A stretch of 64,000 nt of DNA from Ignavibacteria bacterium (GTDB lineage: Bacteria; Bacteroidota; Ignavibacteria; Kapaibacteriales; UBA4661). Below, one piece after another: positions 7,151 to 61,705 of this stretch; the first letter of the stretch is position 1, and each line of letters starts with the position of its first letter. A program made the translations under genes and the position numbers. The DNA lies in assembly GCA_013298775.1 (NCBI GenBank), contig JAAFIV010000004.1, positions 1-64,000 on the forward strand, in the 5' to 3' direction. The notes under the pieces were generated by a model. It was given only the letters and a program-made list of their open reading frames with translations. It searched no databases and was not told where the DNA came from.

Positions 7151-7245
7151 GTAGTGGCACAGATAGTGGCACAGACATTCTTGTCTGTGTTTGTCGCTTG
7201 AAGCCCGCATTGGCACTCACAGACAAGAATGTCTGTGCCACTACT
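7151..7245. repeat. Class A paired-hairpin repeat
   Basis: GTAGTGGCACAG at the left matches CTGTGCCACTAC at the right as a perfect inverted repeat. Inside are two small hairpins, CACAGACA-TTCT-TGTCTGTG and CACAGACA-AGAA-TGTCTGTG. The same sequence recurs near 35.7, 41.7, 59.5 and 61.6 kb. The ORF-track start of the next gene (7229) lies inside this repeat, a reason to use the later ATG. Confidence 0.85.
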
Positions 7246-17275: not shown

Positions 17276-17421
17276 GTAACTGGTCAGGTAGCTCTTCTCG
17301 TCCAAGCGGCTGTTATCACCAGAGCAGTAGCCGTCCGGCGAGTGATGTGCAGCGAGTCACCCGCCGGACGGCTACTGCGCTCGCACTAACAGCCGTCCGA
17401 CGGGAATACCTGACCAGTTAC
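17276..17421. repeat. MITE-like element with 15-bp perfect terminal inverted repeats (class C)
   Basis: The ends GTAACTGGTCAGGTA (17276-17290) and TACCTGACCAGTTAC (17407-17421) are perfectly complementary. Inside are GC-rich arms CGGCTGTTA.../...TAACAGCCGTCCGACGGG and AGTAGCCGTCCGGCG / CGCCGGACGGCTACT. It is related to the 8477-8589 copy. The same TGACCAGTTAC end occurs alone at 55521-55531. Confidence 0.85.
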
Positions 17422-18952: not shown

Positions 18953-18964
18953 CTTTTATAGGGC

Positions 18965-19075
18965 TTTCGCAAATGGCGCAGACAGGAGTGTCTGCGCTAC
19001 CATCTGAACCAGAGGTATGCGCTTTTGGTAGAACAGACACTCTTGTCTGTTCCATAAAATGAGCATTTTTCGAGA
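18965..19075. repeat. Class B paired-hairpin repeat
   Basis: It opens GGCTTTCGCAAATGGCGCAG, with the hairpin GCGCAGACA-GGAG-TGTCTGCGC, then a second hairpin AACAGACA-CTCT-TGTCTGTT. The change of stem from GCGC/GCGC to AA/TT keeps the pairing. It lies between the ammonia-lyase and yceI. Confidence 0.8.
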
Positions 19076-19096
19076 GTTTTTTCTTGTTATAAAAAA

Positions 19097-19124
19097 TAAA
19101 TGTTGCAACATTTAATGTCGCAAC
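19097..19124. promoter_or_regulatory. GTTGCAAC palindrome operator upstream of yceI
   Basis: TAAATGTTGCAACATTTA (19097-19114) is a perfect 18-bp palindrome. A second partial site, GTCGCAAC, follows at 19117-19124, one and a half helical turns on. The same GTTGCAAC core lies upstream of the marR gene at 20161. I infer binding by that MarR protein. Confidence 0.65.
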
Positions 19125-19194
19125 GTATATTTGCATTGTTCAATCGCTCACAACTCATAAACAATATTTTGTTTCACATCTTTTTTGTACTACT

Positions 19195-19788
19195 ATGAAA
19201 CGCTTCTTCGCAAGCCTCGTTCTTTTTGTTGTTACTGGCGTAAGCGCCGTCTTTTCTCAAGATACGTGGAATTTGGACAAGAGCCATTCCAGCGTAAAAT
19301 TTGCTGTAAAGCACCTTGTGGTTTCGGAGACTGAAGGCGCATTTAAGCTCTTCTCTGGCTCGGTAAAAGCAAAAGATGAGAGCTTTGTAGATGCACAAAT
19401 TGATTTCACCGTCGATGTAACAAGCATCAATACCGACGATGAAAAGCGCGATGGTCACTTGAAATCGGATGATTTCTTCAACGCTGAAAAATTTCCTCAA
19501 ATGAAATTTGTTGGTAAATCCTTCAAAAAAGCGGGCAAAGGAAAGTATAAACTCACCGGCGACCTCACCATTCGCGACGTAACAAAAACCGTGAGCTTCG
19601 ATGTTGATTTTGGTGGTGTTGCAAAAGACCCTTGGGGCAATACCAAAGCGGGTTTCAAGGCAAGCACAACGGTCAATCGTCTTGACTATAACTTGAAATG
19701 GAATACCATGCTCGAAACAGGTGGCGCGGTCGTTGGCAAAGAAGTTAAAATCGTTGTAAACATTGAACTTGCAAAGGCAAAAGCATAA
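19195..19788 (+). CDS. YceI family periplasmic lipid-binding-like protein
   Basis: 197 residues with a signal peptide (MKRFFASLVLFVVTGVSAVFSQ). The mature part begins DTWNLDKSHSSVKFAVKHLV and shows the YceI lipocalin-like beta-barrel pattern: FKLFSGSVKAKD, DFTVDVTSINTDDEKRDGHLKSDDFFNAEKFPQMKF, GDLTIRDVTKTVSFDV and AGFKASTTVNRLDYNL. YceI proteins bind isoprenoid or quinone-like lipids in the periplasm. A strong rho-independent terminator follows. The flanking GTTGCAAC palindromes and the MarR gene ~370 bp downstream suggest a small regulated pair. Confidence 0.93.
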   Translation: MKRFFASLVLFVVTGVSAVFSQDTWNLDKSHSSVKFAVKHLVVSETEGAFKLFSGSVKAKDESFVDAQIDFTVDVTSINTDDEKRDGHLKSDDFFNAEKFPQMKFVGKSFKKAGKGKYKLTGDLTIRDVTKTVSFDVDFGGVAKDPWGNTKAGFKASTTVNRLDYNLKWNTMLETGGAVVGKEVKIVVNIELAKAKA

Positions 19789-19817
19789 CCCGCACGTACA
19801 ATAACAATAAAACTTGT

Positions 19818-19825
19818 GTTGCAAC
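19818..19825. promoter_or_regulatory. Third GTTGCAAC site, between yceI and its terminator
   Basis: The core GTTGCAAC recurs in TGTGTTGCAACGTTTA just after the yceI stop. Its arms are weakly symmetric, so this may be a weaker operator or chance. Confidence 0.35.
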
Positions 19826-19878
19826 GTTTATACTGGTAATTGTTCAAAGGGGAACAACGTAACTCCTCCAAAAAGAAG

Positions 19879-19916
19879 ACGCGAACACACGTAAAATGGT
19901 GTTCGCGTTTTTTTAT
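19879..19916 (+). terminator. Rho-independent terminator after yceI
   Basis: ACGCGAACAC and GTGTTCGCGT form a perfect 10-bp stem with a 10-nt loop, followed by a run of seven T. Confidence 0.9.
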
Positions 19917-19964
19917 TTTTCTATAAATGTTGGTGCAACAGCAGATTGTTTTTTGGACTTTGGC

Positions 19965-20075
19965 AAATGGCGCAGACAGGAGTGTTACGCGCTGCCATCT
20001 GCAACGAGGTTTCATACGACTTCGGTAGAACAGACGCTCTTATCTGTTCCATACAATGAACATTTTGCGAAAGTT
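19965..20075. repeat. Class B paired-hairpin repeat (degenerate)
   Basis: It starts GACTTTGGCAAATGGCGCAG, contains the hairpin GGCGCAGACAGGAGTGTTAC (decayed right stem) and AACAGACGCTCTTATCTGTT, and ends TTTTGCGAAAGTTT. It separates the yceI terminator from the marR operator. Confidence 0.75.
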
Positions 20076-20098
20076 TTATGTTTATTTATTGTTTGTTC

Positions 20099-34716: not shown

Positions 34717-35601
34717 TTACCCAAAGAGCTTTGTGCGCACAACTTCACCTGCCAAAATCTGCATTTTCTTTCGTTGTGGTACGAAAACACGCCCTAAGAA
34801 GGGGTTGAAATCACGCTCTTCGATTTTGTAGAGAATGCCGCGATAAATCTTGCTTGCAGCCGAAATTGCATACTGCGAGGAACGCGGCAACAGCGAAATA
34901 CCTTTATCTCCTTCTTCGTAGTATTCATGCGCCCTCTCGACCTGAAAGCGCATACAGTCGCGCAATTCCGGCGAAAAGCGTTCTTGCAAAATATCCTGTT
35001 CCGATACGCCAAACCGCGCCAAATCTTCTTGCGGCAGGTAAATCCGCCCCATGTTTTTATCTTCCTGCACATCGCGCAGAATGTTCGTGAGCTGCATCGC
35101 AATTCCCATTTTTTCGGCGTACTCGAAGGCGGAAGCGTCCTTGTAGCCAAGCACGCACGTCATCATCAGCCCAACAACCGATGCCACGCGATAGCAGAAA
35201 ACGTAGAGGTCGTCGAAGGTTTGGTAGCGGTCAAATTCCATATCCATCGTTACGCCCTTCAGCAAATCCATTGGGTATTCAAGCGGCATGCTGCACCTGC
35301 TCATAACTGGCGCGAATGCTCGCATGACGGAGTGTTCCGATTCACCCGTGCGATGGCAAATGGTCAGTTCTTGGCGTAATGCCTCGACTTCAGCAAAAAG
35401 CTCTTCGGGCGTGCGTCCGCGTGGGGCATCAATCAAATTGTCCGCATAGCGGCAGAAGCCGTACACTGCGTAGGTTGCCCAACGTTTATCGGTGGGGAGA
35501 ATACTTGCCGACACATAAAAACTTTTTGCAAAATGCGCCGTAAGATGCCGCGCATGAAGAAATGATATTTTGAGGTCGGGGTTGAGCCAGAATTTATCCA
35601 T
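34717..35601 (-). CDS. crtB: Phytoene/squalene synthase family protein
   Basis: 294 residues from the ATG at 35601; the longer ORF start lies in a repeat. Two aspartate-rich motifs are present: YGFCRYADNLIDAP (first, with DNLID) and MQLTNILRDVQEDKNMGRIYLP (second). Other signatures are HAKSFYVSASILP-like FAKSFYVSASILPTDKRWATYAVYGF and VASVVGLMMTCVLG. These enzymes condense two geranylgeranyl (or farnesyl) diphosphates head-to-head, giving phytoene or a squalene precursor at the membrane. Carotenoid synthesis is likely, but no desaturase or cyclase gene is adjacent. It converges with the glyoxalase-fold gene, 9 bp apart. Confidence 0.9.
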   Translation of the reverse strand: MDKFWLNPDLKISFLHARHLTAHFAKSFYVSASILPTDKRWATYAVYGFCRYADNLIDAPRGRTPEELFAEVEALRQELTICHRTGESEHSVMRAFAPVMSRCSMPLEYPMDLLKGVTMDMEFDRYQTFDDLYVFCYRVASVVGLMMTCVLGYKDASAFEYAEKMGIAMQLTNILRDVQEDKNMGRIYLPQEDLARFGVSEQDILQERFSPELRDCMRFQVERAHEYYEEGDKGISLLPRSSQYAISAASKIYRGILYKIEERDFNPFLGRVFVPQRKKMQILAGEVVRTKLFG

Positions 35602-35645: not shown

Positions 35646-35928
35646 AGGGCTTTCGCAAATGGCGCAAACAAGAGTGTCTGCGCTCTTTGTACACGACAAA
35701 ACTTCTTCAGCAGTGGCACAGACATTCTTGTCTGTGAGTGTTGGTGCGGGATTCAGGTGAGAAACACAGACAGGAATGTCTGTGCCACTGAAGCCTGATT
35801 CTACGAGCTTTTCAGAGGTTTTGTCGTGTACAAAGGTCTGCGCTACCATTAAACATAGATTTCATGGGGCTTCAGTAGGGCAGACACTCTTGTCTGCCTT
35901 CATGCAACGAGCCGTTTACGAAAGCCCT
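35646..35928. repeat. Class B repeat interrupted by a MITE
   Basis: The outer ends AGGGCTTTCGCAAATGGC and GCCGTTTACGAAAGCCCT are nearly perfect inverted repeats. The left hairpin region is cut after GTCTGCGCT by the class A MITE, and the repeat resumes at 35836 with the duplicated GTCTGCGCT followed by ACCATTAAACATAG and the right hairpin GGCAGACA-CTCT-TGTCTGCC. It lies between crtB and the histidine kinase. Confidence 0.9.
35685..35835. mobile_element. 151-bp MITE (class A) with 18-bp perfect TIRs and 9-bp target duplication
   Basis: The left end CTTTGTACACGACAAAAC (35685-35702) and right end GTTTTGTCGTGTACAAAG (35818-35835) are perfect inverted repeats. GTCTGCGCT is duplicated immediately on both sides (35676-35684 and 35836-35844). 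Inside are the paired hairpins GTGGCACAGACATTCTTGTC and CACAGACAGGAATGTCTGTG. It has no coding capacity, so it would depend on a transposase elsewhere. Confidence 0.93.
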
Positions 35929-35991: not shown

Positions 35992-38628
35992 TCAAGCGTG
36001 TGCGCTTGGCAAATCTACAAAAAAGCGTGCGCCATTGCCGAGTGTGGATTCGCACCACACCTTGCCGTTCATAGATTCCACCATTTGCTTGACAATGCTC
36101 AAGCCCAGACCAGTGCTGTGTTCTCCAGCAGTTGGGCGAGCGGAAAGACGGGCAAATTTACCAAATAATTTTTGCATATCATCTTCCGAAAGTCCCGGAC
36201 CTTCGTCGCGGACTTCGATGCGTATGCTGGCATTATCGGCAGTGCGTACCATCACAAAAACATTTTTGCCTTTCGGTGAATACTTTATTGCATTGGAAAC
36301 GAGGTTTTCCAGCACTTGCGTCAAGCGTTGCTCGTCTGCCACAGCCCGCATCTCTTCTTGCTCTGGCAGAAATTGAAGCTGAATTTCTTTTGCTTCGGCG
36401 CGTTCTTGATACATTTCTACCGTCATGGAAACAATCGGTAAAATATCAAAATGCACTAAGCTGAGAGGCGCGGCGGTTGCTTCGCTCCGATACGCATCCA
36501 AAATATTCTTCACCAAATCGCCCATTCGCGCACTGATGATGCCCATTTGCTTGATAATGCGTTGCCGCGTTTCCTCCTCTGCTGTTGGCGAGGCGAGAAT
36601 TTCCGTCAAGCCAGCAAGCGCACTAATGGGATTTTTCAAATCATGCGCGACAATGCTGATAATTTCAGATTTTTCCGTGTTCAGAGTGTTCAACTCCTGA
36701 TTCCGCGCTGCAAGGTCGCCAATGACGGTTTGTAAATCACGGTTGGCAGCGTGTACCTGTTCTGAAACTCGCTCCAATTCTCGATACGCATTCGCATTGG
36801 ACAATGCTGAGGTGATAAAGGGAATAATGGTGCGCAGGAAATTCAACCGATGTTCCGTGAAATACTGCGCCTCATAGCTCTGCGCACTCGCAACACCGAT
36901 GAGCTTACCAGAAGCCTGAATAAGGGGAAAATACACAAGCGAGGCGGGCGAGGCACCATGCAGAGCGGATTGCTGAAAATCATCCACAAGCACCATTTCA
37001 CGACGTTCTACGCACTGCACCGCAGCACGCTCGCGCTCTTTCATGGACAAAATGTAGTTTGGAAGAATAACCCGATTTTCAATCGTCAGCGTATATTCAA
37101 TTTCTTCGCGTGCTTCAGAATACGTTCCCACAACGACAATCGGCGCATTGATGACGCGGTTGATGTCGTCGTACAAACTGAGACCAATGCCGTTCAAATC
37201 GAGTGTGGAGGTGATTTTTTGTCCAATCGCACTGAGAACTTTCACGCTGTTGTAGGCTTCTTCGAGCATCTGTGCGTTGTCTTCGGAAATGAGCTTGGCG
37301 GTTTCGAGCTGGATGTTGTTTTCGCGCAGAAGTTCGTTTGTGTGTTGGATTTTCAATGCCTGTTCCTGCACAAGAGCTTTTTGCCGCATAATTTCTGCCT
37401 TCGCCTGCCGCTCTTGGCGAATATTACGATAGAATTGGGCAGCAATGATACCAATCAACACAAGACCAATACTGAGCGCAATGATGATGATACGCTGGCG
37501 TTCTTTATCTTTTTCCAAAAGCAGTATTTGTCCCTCTTTTTTGCGCATTTCGAGGTCGGTTTGCTGCAAGGCAAAATTATTACGAATGTTGGTTTGATAA
37601 ATAGAATCTTGGTACAATGCCGCCAAATGTTCGTATTTATGCGCTTCTTGGAACTTTCCCATTGCCGCATACGAATCACCCAACGCCTTATACGCGCTGC
37701 GGATTTGCGCTTTTTCTCGCCGCCCTTGCGCCATGCCGAGCGCAAGCATGCTGTATTCTACTGCTCGCGGGGCATCGTTCAGAGCGAGGTACAATCGGGC
37801 AAGGCTGGTGTAATTGAAAATAATGGTGCGTTCGTGATTGAGCTGTTGTGCATATAAAAGCGAAAGCTGTAATGCCTCCAACGCCTCATATTTCCTGCCC
37901 TCAGCAAGAGAGCATTCGCCAAGATTATTCAGATTGATGGCAAGATTGAGCGTGTCGCGCTGACGTGTGAAGTACGACATCGTTTTTTGCACGTATTCAC
38001 GCCCTTTTGCAGCATTTCCCAGTAAACGATAATCAATACCAAGCTCTTGATATACATCCATAATCACGGTGCTATCTAAGGTTTTATCGGCTTCGTAGGC
38101 TTTTTGAGCAAAAGAAAATGCCCGCAAATGTTCCTCCAATGAACGCTCGTAGCTGCTCACGGCACGAAAAAGAGTACCTTTGTATTGAATCAGTTGTGCG
38201 CTCGGAAGGGCGAGATTGCTCATTTCGGCAACTTTTTGTCCCTGCAAATATGCCTCCATTGCTGCTGCATAATCGCCCTCAATGTGCCGCAGCCAACCCA
38301 AAATACGATAGCCACGTGCTATTCCTGTGGGATACTCCAACTGCTCAGAAAGGCGAATTGCTTGCGTGGCAAATTCTACGCCAACTGTTGTATTCACGGT
38401 GCGGTACGCGTTGGCAAGTTCATACAACGCATCGGCAAGTTCTGTGCTGCCCTGTTTTGCTTCCCCGCGTACCTGCTCTACGCGCCGCGTCAGCGAATCC
38501 AAGCGCGTATCGGCATATATGTACGTCGTGATTGCTGCTTGCACAAGAAATACCAACAGTATTCGTGTTACAGGCTGGAACAAACGAGAGAATGAAGTGT
38601 GTGAAAAGAAATGTCGCAGAAACGGCAT
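35992..38628 (-). CDS. Sensor histidine kinase with TPR, TM and GAF domains
   Basis: 878 residues from the ATG at 38628; the ORF-track start 38670 is a TTG. Order: N-terminal hydrophobic signal/anchor (ILLVFLVQAAITTYIYA), TPR-like helices in an extracytoplasmic region (~40-360; ALYELANAYRTV, NLNNLGECSLAEGRKYEALEALQ), a TM segment (IIIIALSIGLVLIGIIAAQF, ~376-396), a coiled coil, a GAF-like domain (~466-630), HisKA with SIVAHDLKNPISALAGL (His near 660) and HATPase_c with LENLVSNAIKYSPKG, VRDEGPGLSEDD and STGLGLSIVKQMVE. It senses an unknown signal and autophosphorylates. No response regulator is adjacent, so it is an orphan kinase. Its catalytic half closely resembles that of the kinase at 49290. 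Confidence 0.92.
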   Translation of the reverse strand: MPFLRHFFSHTSFSRLFQPVTRILLVFLVQAAITTYIYADTRLDSLTRRVEQVRGEAKQGSTELADALYELANAYRTVNTTVGVEFATQAIRLSEQLEYPTGIARGYRILGWLRHIEGDYAAAMEAYLQGQKVAEMSNLALPSAQLIQYKGTLFRAVSSYERSLEEHLRAFSFAQKAYEADKTLDSTVIMDVYQELGIDYRLLGNAAKGREYVQKTMSYFTRQRDTLNLAINLNNLGECSLAEGRKYEALEALQLSLLYAQQLNHERTIIFNYTSLARLYLALNDAPRAVEYSMLALGMAQGRREKAQIRSAYKALGDSYAAMGKFQEAHKYEHLAALYQDSIYQTNIRNNFALQQTDLEMRKKEGQILLLEKDKERQRIIIIALSIGLVLIGIIAAQFYRNIRQERQAKAEIMRQKALVQEQALKIQHTNELLRENNIQLETAKLISEDNAQMLEEAYNSVKVLSAIGQKITSTLDLNGIGLSLYDDINRVINAPIVVVGTYSEAREEIEYTLTIENRVILPNYILSMKERERAAVQCVERREMVLVDDFQQSALHGASPASLVYFPLIQASGKLIGVASAQSYEAQYFTEHRLNFLRTIIPFITSALSNANAYRELERVSEQVHAANRDLQTVIGDLAARNQELNTLNTEKSEIISIVAHDLKNPISALAGLTEILASPTAEEETRQRIIKQMGIISARMGDLVKNILDAYRSEATAAPLSLVHFDILPIVSMTVEMYQERAEAKEIQLQFLPEQEEMRAVADEQRLTQVLENLVSNAIKYSPKGKNVFVMVRTADNASIRIEVRDEGPGLSEDDMQKLFGKFARLSARPTAGEHSTGLGLSIVKQMVESMNGKVWCESTLGNGARFFVDLPSAHA

Positions 38629-38874
38629 AAAAACGAGATTTGCAATTGGAAATGGAAGGGTAGGGAGCAAGGAAAAGCCAAATCAAGAAGCGGGAACACT
38701 TGTCCTCTCGCCTTTCTCTCTTTGCACCGTACACAAGCGGGTAATTTAGCAAAAAGTTTGTATTTTACGGGTGTTGATTTCGCTTTTGTGAAATTTTCCC
38801 CGCTTTTCGCTCGCGGCAGCGCACGCTATCACGGTTCTTTCTCACTCCTTCACTGTATTTGAATAAAAATCTTC

Positions 38875-41597: not shown

Positions 41598-41839
41598 CTT
41601 TTGTACACGATAAAATCTCTGAGAAGCTCATACAATCAGGCTTCTGTGGCTTGAGACTTCTTATTTGTGTTTATCGCTTGAAACCCTCACTAAATACTCA
41701 CAGACAAGAATAGAGTTTATCTCGAATAAGGTTTTTAGAGTTTTGGAGCAAGGCAGCATGCTGCCTTGTTTAGTAAAAAAGTCTATTCGGAATAAAGTCT
41801 AATGTCTGTGCCACTACTGAAGAAATTTTGTCGTGTACT
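41598..41839. mobile_element. Second class A MITE copy, in inverted orientation and interrupted
   Basis: The ends CTTTTGTACACGATAAAATC and ATTTTGTCGTGTAC match the class A MITE at 35685 in the opposite orientation, with inner parts ACAATCAGGCTTCTGTGGC and TGTCTGTGCCACTACTGAAG. An 89-bp element splits the right hairpin (CACAGACAAGAAT | GTCTGTG). No gene is present in this gap. Confidence 0.85.
41712..41800. mobile_element. 89-bp element nested inside the MITE
   Basis: The imperfect ends AGAGTTTATCTCGAATA and TATTCGGAATAAAGTCT pair at 14 of 17 positions. AAT is duplicated on both sides (41709-41711, 41801-41803). The centre holds the perfect palindrome CAAGGCAGCATGCTGCCTTG (41749-41768), also seen at 13003-13022. 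Confidence 0.8.
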
Positions 41840-41881
41840 CAGAGTTTCATCCTTCAGATTTCATACTTCATCCTTTTCTTC

Positions 41882-49060: not shown

Positions 49061-49216
49061 TTTGAAGTTTAGATGAAATTGCCCGTTCTCGCCCTCATCC
49101 CCCGCCTTCTCCCAGAGGGAGAAGGAGCTAAGACGAAGAATATCAAACGCTTCTGAAGCCCTCTCCCTCTGGGAGAGGGTTGGGTGAGGGCAAGCGCAGA
49201 AGTAAGATTTTATGCG
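49061..49216. repeat. Class D repeat with CCTCTCCC/GGGAGAGG hairpins (truncated copy)
   Basis: It starts TTTGAAGTTTAGATGAA and contains the hairpins CTTCTCCC-AGA-GGGAGAAG and CCCTCTCCCTCTGGGAGAGG. It shares its left end and hairpins with the complete copy at 59583-59755, but the right TIR is missing. It lies in the gap between the giant gene and the propeller kinase; the rest of that gap (48611-49060) shows no gene. Confidence 0.8.
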
Positions 49217-59474: not shown

Positions 59475-59570
59475 ATTAGTGGCACAGACATTCTTGTCTG
59501 TGAGTATTGGTGAGGGACTCAGGTAAAAAGCACAGACAAGAATGTCCGTGCCACTGAAGCCTCATTCTAC
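59475..59570. repeat. Class A paired-hairpin repeat
   Basis: AGTGGCACAGACATTCTTGT and CACAGACAAGAATGTCCGTG face each other, followed by GCCACTGAAGCCTCATTCTA. The MITE ends (TTTGTACACGAC) are absent. Confidence 0.85.
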
Positions 59571-61618: not shown

Positions 61619-61705
61619 TAAGTGGCACAGATATTCTTGTCTGTGAGTGTTGATGCAAGCCTAAAGCGAAGAACACAGACAGGAATGTCTGTGCCACCGA
61701 AGACA
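61619..61705. repeat. Class A paired-hairpin repeat
   Basis: AAGTGGCACAGATATTCTTG and ACAGGAATGTCTGTGCCACC face each other. It has the same internal layout as the copies at 59475 and 35685. It lies between the DUF2490 and S9 peptidase genes. Confidence 0.85.

Follow-up and report, generated by a model that had tools for sequence, protein, structure and literature searches.

ISAba1 (1180 bp) and ISSysp2 (1179 bp) are IS4-family elements with features of the IS10 subgroup, and they resemble the IS described below as a partner of the class A MITE in their ends (CTCTGTACACGAYAAA, CTCAGTACAGGACAAA), their length and their 9-bp target duplications. Their transposases are, however, only 37-38% identical to that of the partner, and the accessible portions of the literature on these elements contain no report that we found of a 151-bp MITE with a palindromic doublet. 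A second point of comparison is MITEAba12 of Acinetobacter, which, according to the part of the source available, is short, has only its terminal inverted repeats (TIRs) in common with a co-resident IS and generates 9-bp duplications, as class A does (PMC6382973). It differs in length (113 bp) and in the TIRs of its partner ISAba12, which are unrelated (GGCTTTGTTGCACAAA), and the same portion of that source reports no palindrome hotspot that we could find.

Targeting of REP palindromes is known for IS1397, IS621 and ISPpu9, and within the IS4 family for ISRm22, all nine copies of which lie in such palindromes (PMC1525189). The targeting by class A and its partner is of this kind, but here palindromes receive only ∼16-18% of insertions, most of them of the MITE rather than the IS. 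The cores of class A type also recall the REPIN/RAYT system, being likewise two inverted palindromes arranged as a doublet of fixed length in many copies; unlike in that system, the RAYT-like gene found sits among palindromes of the GTGAGGCTCTCA type and not among the core palindromes. REP targeting by the IS4 family (PMC1525189) and, as far as the available part of the source goes, MITEs whose likeness to an IS of the same genome is limited to the TIRs (PMC6382973) are already published. Added here are an identified partner IS, recurrent targeting by a MITE at the same phase, and an architecture in which a doublet is enclosed by TIRs.

A class A element nested in a class B repeat

The locus lies in a stretch of 64,000 nucleotides that was analysed whole (the window). 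A class B element of ∼123 bp without its insert spans positions 35646-35928 (plus strand), with ends AGGGCTTTCGCAAA and TTTACGAAAGCCCT that match class B copies genome-wide. Its TIRs occupy 35646-35659 (left, plus strand, AGGGCTTTCGCAAA) and 35915-35928 (right, minus strand), and between them lie palindrome module 1 (CGCAAACAAGAGTGTCTGCGCT, 35663-35684, plus strand), whose inner arm is the insertion target, and palindrome module 2 (GGCAGACACTCTTGTCTGCC, 35879-35898, plus strand). The class B element is split by a non-autonomous class A MITE of 151 bp (35685-35835, plus strand), bounded by 18-bp TIRs (CTTTGTACACGACAAAAC) at 35685-35702 (plus strand) and 35818-35835 (minus strand), both with zero mismatches. 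The target site duplication GTCTGCGCT flanks it at 35676-35684 and 35836-35844 (both plus strand). Inside class A, a 78-bp palindromic doublet (35712-35789, plus strand) forms a REPIN-like core that is found across the genome without the TIRs as well. In the window, the class A TIR has four matches at up to three mismatches (two of them perfect), compared with 0.04 expected by chance.

This anatomy, an 18-bp-TIR element interrupting class B between two copies of GTCTGCGCT, agrees to the base with the preliminary description of the locus, and so does its proposal that excision of class A and one duplication restores a class B element. The rejoined sequence can be aligned continuously with full-length class B copies from other places in the genome, for example with G000:C8:39572-39692 (87% over query positions 3-125, with the junction at ∼41). 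The 9-mer GTCTGCGCT/AGCGCAGAC belongs to class B itself, where it forms a palindrome arm, as expected of a target site. On the minus strand, a squalene/phytoene synthase gene (PF00494) starts at 35601, and the nested insertion is situated 44 bp upstream of it and downstream of a histidine kinase gene (35992-38670, also minus strand). An outward promoter for the downstream gene was considered and discarded, the search giving one weak match against 0.3 in shuffled sequences.

The order of events proposed earlier, in which class B is older than this class A insertion, is borne out by empty sites. More than 25 class B copies in the window's own genome (G000) cross the insertion site uninterrupted and carry the target arm once, and are thus paralogous empty sites. 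Among relatives, where the preliminary description had suggested looking for empty sites, the sister species G005 has the orthologous locus (flanking genes 81-87% identical) and lacks both class A and class B there, but its intergenic spacer has diverged, so that this empty site is not base-perfect. The G005 orthologue of a second copy (L006) lacks class A and has a single CCTTAT at the site.

The class A family and an IS4-family partner

The family was searched for in G000 (5.19 Mb, 95 contigs). At up to two mismatches the TIR gives 104 matches, against one for a reversed control, and the searches gave ∼55 class A elements, nearly all of 150-152 bp and most of 151 bp. With 18-bp TIRs and no transposase ORF, they are short, non-coding, multi-copy and uniform in length, as MITEs are. 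Of the 58 candidate pairs listed, 40 are flanked by 9-bp duplications that differ at no more than one position; all 40 are real elements, the partner IS being counted among them. Different copies have different duplicated 9-mers, which tend to begin with G (position 1, 23/40) and to end in C (position 9, 29/40); the Tn5 target likewise has GC pairs at each end (PMC1525189). The more diverged an element is, the more decayed its duplication tends to be (Spearman 0.46, p 4e-4).

At positions 41600-41842 of the window, a ∼90-bp element (TAGAGTTTATCTCGAATAAG...AAAAAGTCTATTCGGAATAAAGTCTA) has split another class A copy, an older one. This element probably represents an additional MITE class, and fragments of it also adjoin loci L055 and L083. 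At L021 (G000:C38, around 11150), the left TIR end of a class A copy has been turned into a short tandem array in which TTGTACATGATAAA is repeated.

The preliminary description had suggested looking for a transposase gene bounded by the same TIRs, and one is present. Two TIR matches 1179 bp apart (G000:C14:80601-81779) bound an intact ORF of 351 residues, whose product matches the IS4-family transposase model NF033591 (203 bits, cut-off 152) and PF01609, with the DDE residues in a single ORF and the YREK signature preserved as Y-QQ-R-WTI-E-TLFASL-K, that is, Y-2-R-3-E-6-K. The TIRs of this IS (CTATGTACACGACAAAAG / CTTTGTACACGACAAAAC) are nearly the same as those of class A. It carries its own perfect 9-bp duplication, GGTACAGAC, and is itself located in another palindromic doublet. 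Ends beginning with 5'-CT together with 9-bp direct repeats define the IS10 subgroup (PMC2266710, which also gives the YREK definition), and the partner has both; its 1179 bp fall just under the 1200-1350 bp stated as typical of the subgroup. ISAba1 measures 1180 bp. G000 holds one intact copy and a broken remnant on contig C45. Relatives with similar ends occur in a genus-mate (G004) and in another genus (G009, 41% identical, with a perfect 9-bp duplication), and close relatives (86-88%) are encoded in two public records, one from a Candidatus Kapaibacterium MAG and the other from an Ignavibacteria MAG, which makes Candidatus Kapaibacterium the probable lineage of the window.

Beyond the TIRs, class A and the partner IS show no convincing similarity, and subterminal similarity is no better than in shuffled sequences. 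That class A arose from the IS through an internal deletion was considered and rejected, since nothing outside the TIRs rises above shuffles. Because the likeness is confined to the TIRs, we infer, rather than read directly, which IS mobilised class A. The MITE nature of class A and its transposition with a 9-bp target duplication, both put forward in the preliminary description, are upheld by the ∼55 sister copies with duplications of their own and by the IS4-family partner with matching TIRs.

Recurrent insertion into a palindrome arm

Class A is very probably a MITE mobilised in trans by an IS4-family, ISAba1-like transposase with IS10-subgroup features, here inserted with a 9-bp stagger into an older class B arm that is a hotspot for the transposase. 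The transposase encoded at C14:80601-81779 would bind the 18-bp class A TIRs and excise the element by cut-and-paste, a mode suggested by the family to which it belongs. Class A would then be joined to the target with a 9-bp stagger, the repair of which would leave the 9-bp direct repeats. The target in this case would be one of the palindrome modules of the older class B repeat, hit in its inner arm and chosen through a base preference (G...C) combined with a preference for the palindrome.

The distribution of insertions in G000 bears on the last of these steps. CAGACA-N4-TGTCTG palindromes harbour ten elements in all, the IS and nine copies of class A, and nine of the ten (eight class A copies and the IS) share the identical phase NNNNCAGAC, while L054 is two bases off. 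The background density of the module was estimated from 324 kb of G000 stretches with a loose pattern (control motifs also give tens of matches), so that any bias would inflate the expectation. Against it, 0.036 same-phase insertions are expected for 56 elements, and the observed nine are ∼250-fold above background; at any phase, 0.7 would be expected. One discovery search used a query that included class B flanks, and the TIRs of the nested copies were also found by a flank-blind search. Two points had escaped the preliminary description: the site is a recurrent hotspot and no one-off, and both classes enclose related palindromic doublets. As judged from the pattern of insertions, the arm 9-mer AGCGCAGAC/GTCTGCGCT is a hotspot for the partner transposase in G000. 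None of the 16 class A copies examined in G005 lies in such palindromes; the hotspot may depend on the abundance of class B, or may be specific to G000.

These counts bear on the possibility that class A accumulates in palindromes simply because insertions into intergenic repeats do no harm, with no preference on the part of the transposase. Many class A copies interrupt no long reading frame, and repeats could serve as neutral landing pads, but neutrality predicts a spread across all phases and across other repeats, and the concentration at one exact phase and the excess at any phase are not what it would give. We consider this explanation rather improbable, and attribute the preference, conditionally, to target choice by the transposase and not to tolerance of the insertions.

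Amplification, as one block, of a B-A-B composite with a single origin would turn the repeated nesting into mere copying. Loci L001, L011 and L014 do share the identical target 9-mer in the same class B arm, as copying would predict. In L014, however, class A lies in the opposite orientation relative to the 9-mer, which marks the three as independent insertions and largely refutes the composite. Their class A copies, moreover, share just 84-95% identity, further nests occupy module 2 of class B or different doublets (9-mers AGCACAGAC, AGAGCAGAC, ACGGCAGAC and GGTACAGAC), and the IS itself is inserted in the same way, all of which makes amplification of one composite highly unlikely. Practically no weight is left for the notion, raised by the preliminary description as what would speak against its own reading, that both copies of GTCTGCGCT are repeat sequence and not a target duplication: the 9-mer does belong to class B, but its arm is present once in uninterrupted class B copies, and the ∼55 class A copies in G000 have duplicated 9-mers that mostly differ from one another, which removes the objection.

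Palindromic doublets in both repeat classes

Class A carries a doublet of inverted palindromes of exactly 78 bp. In 324 kb, 13 cores of class A type were found, all of 78 bp; two have both TIRs, two lack one and nine have neither. In the sister genomes G001, G006 and G007, matches are for the most part confined to this core. Within the window, 78-bp doublets with the class A core layout and no class A TIRs are seen at 7165-7242, 59478-59555 and 61621-61698. Similar modules make up the doublet inside class B, of which there is also a shorter form with no TIRs. Judging by layout, each of the two classes seems to consist of a palindromic doublet set between unrelated TIRs. Two further class B copies lie ∼1 kb apart at window positions 18961-20076 (cores 18979-19049 and 19973-20046), and a repeat scan recorded further strong inverted repeats with arms of 25-39 nt at 17307-17395 and 49100-49184.

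For class B, 13 candidate copies have TA on both flanks, compatible with a duplication of the IS630 type. An IS630-type partner was looked for and none was found: the one such gene detected is truncated at the end of contig C56, with no class B TIR in the stretch. A search for long-range pairs of class B TIRs that might bound an autonomous element returned only chance-like pairs. A RAYT was discarded as the mover of the cores, the lone RAYT-like gene, on contig C8, being flanked by different, unrelated palindromes. This gene (L195, 1315-1893; G000:C8:8052-8396) stands amid palindromes of the GTGAGGCTCTCA/GTGAGACCCTCAC kind, which form a REP system of their own in G000.

One tentative reading, which we hold to be possible though the less likely outcome, is that class A is a REPIN-like doublet captured between ends of the IS10 type, a chimeric MITE that prefers doublets of the same palindrome superfamily. 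If so, the doublets would serve both as cargo and as landing pad, building nested arrays. The locus provides an IS/MITE pair from a little-studied lineage with a clear relative chronology, and places a MITE beside the small number of IS4-family elements for which targeting of REP palindromes has been described. Since insertions recur at one exact phase and in either orientation, the targeting of palindromes by a transposase of the IS4 family becomes directly testable.
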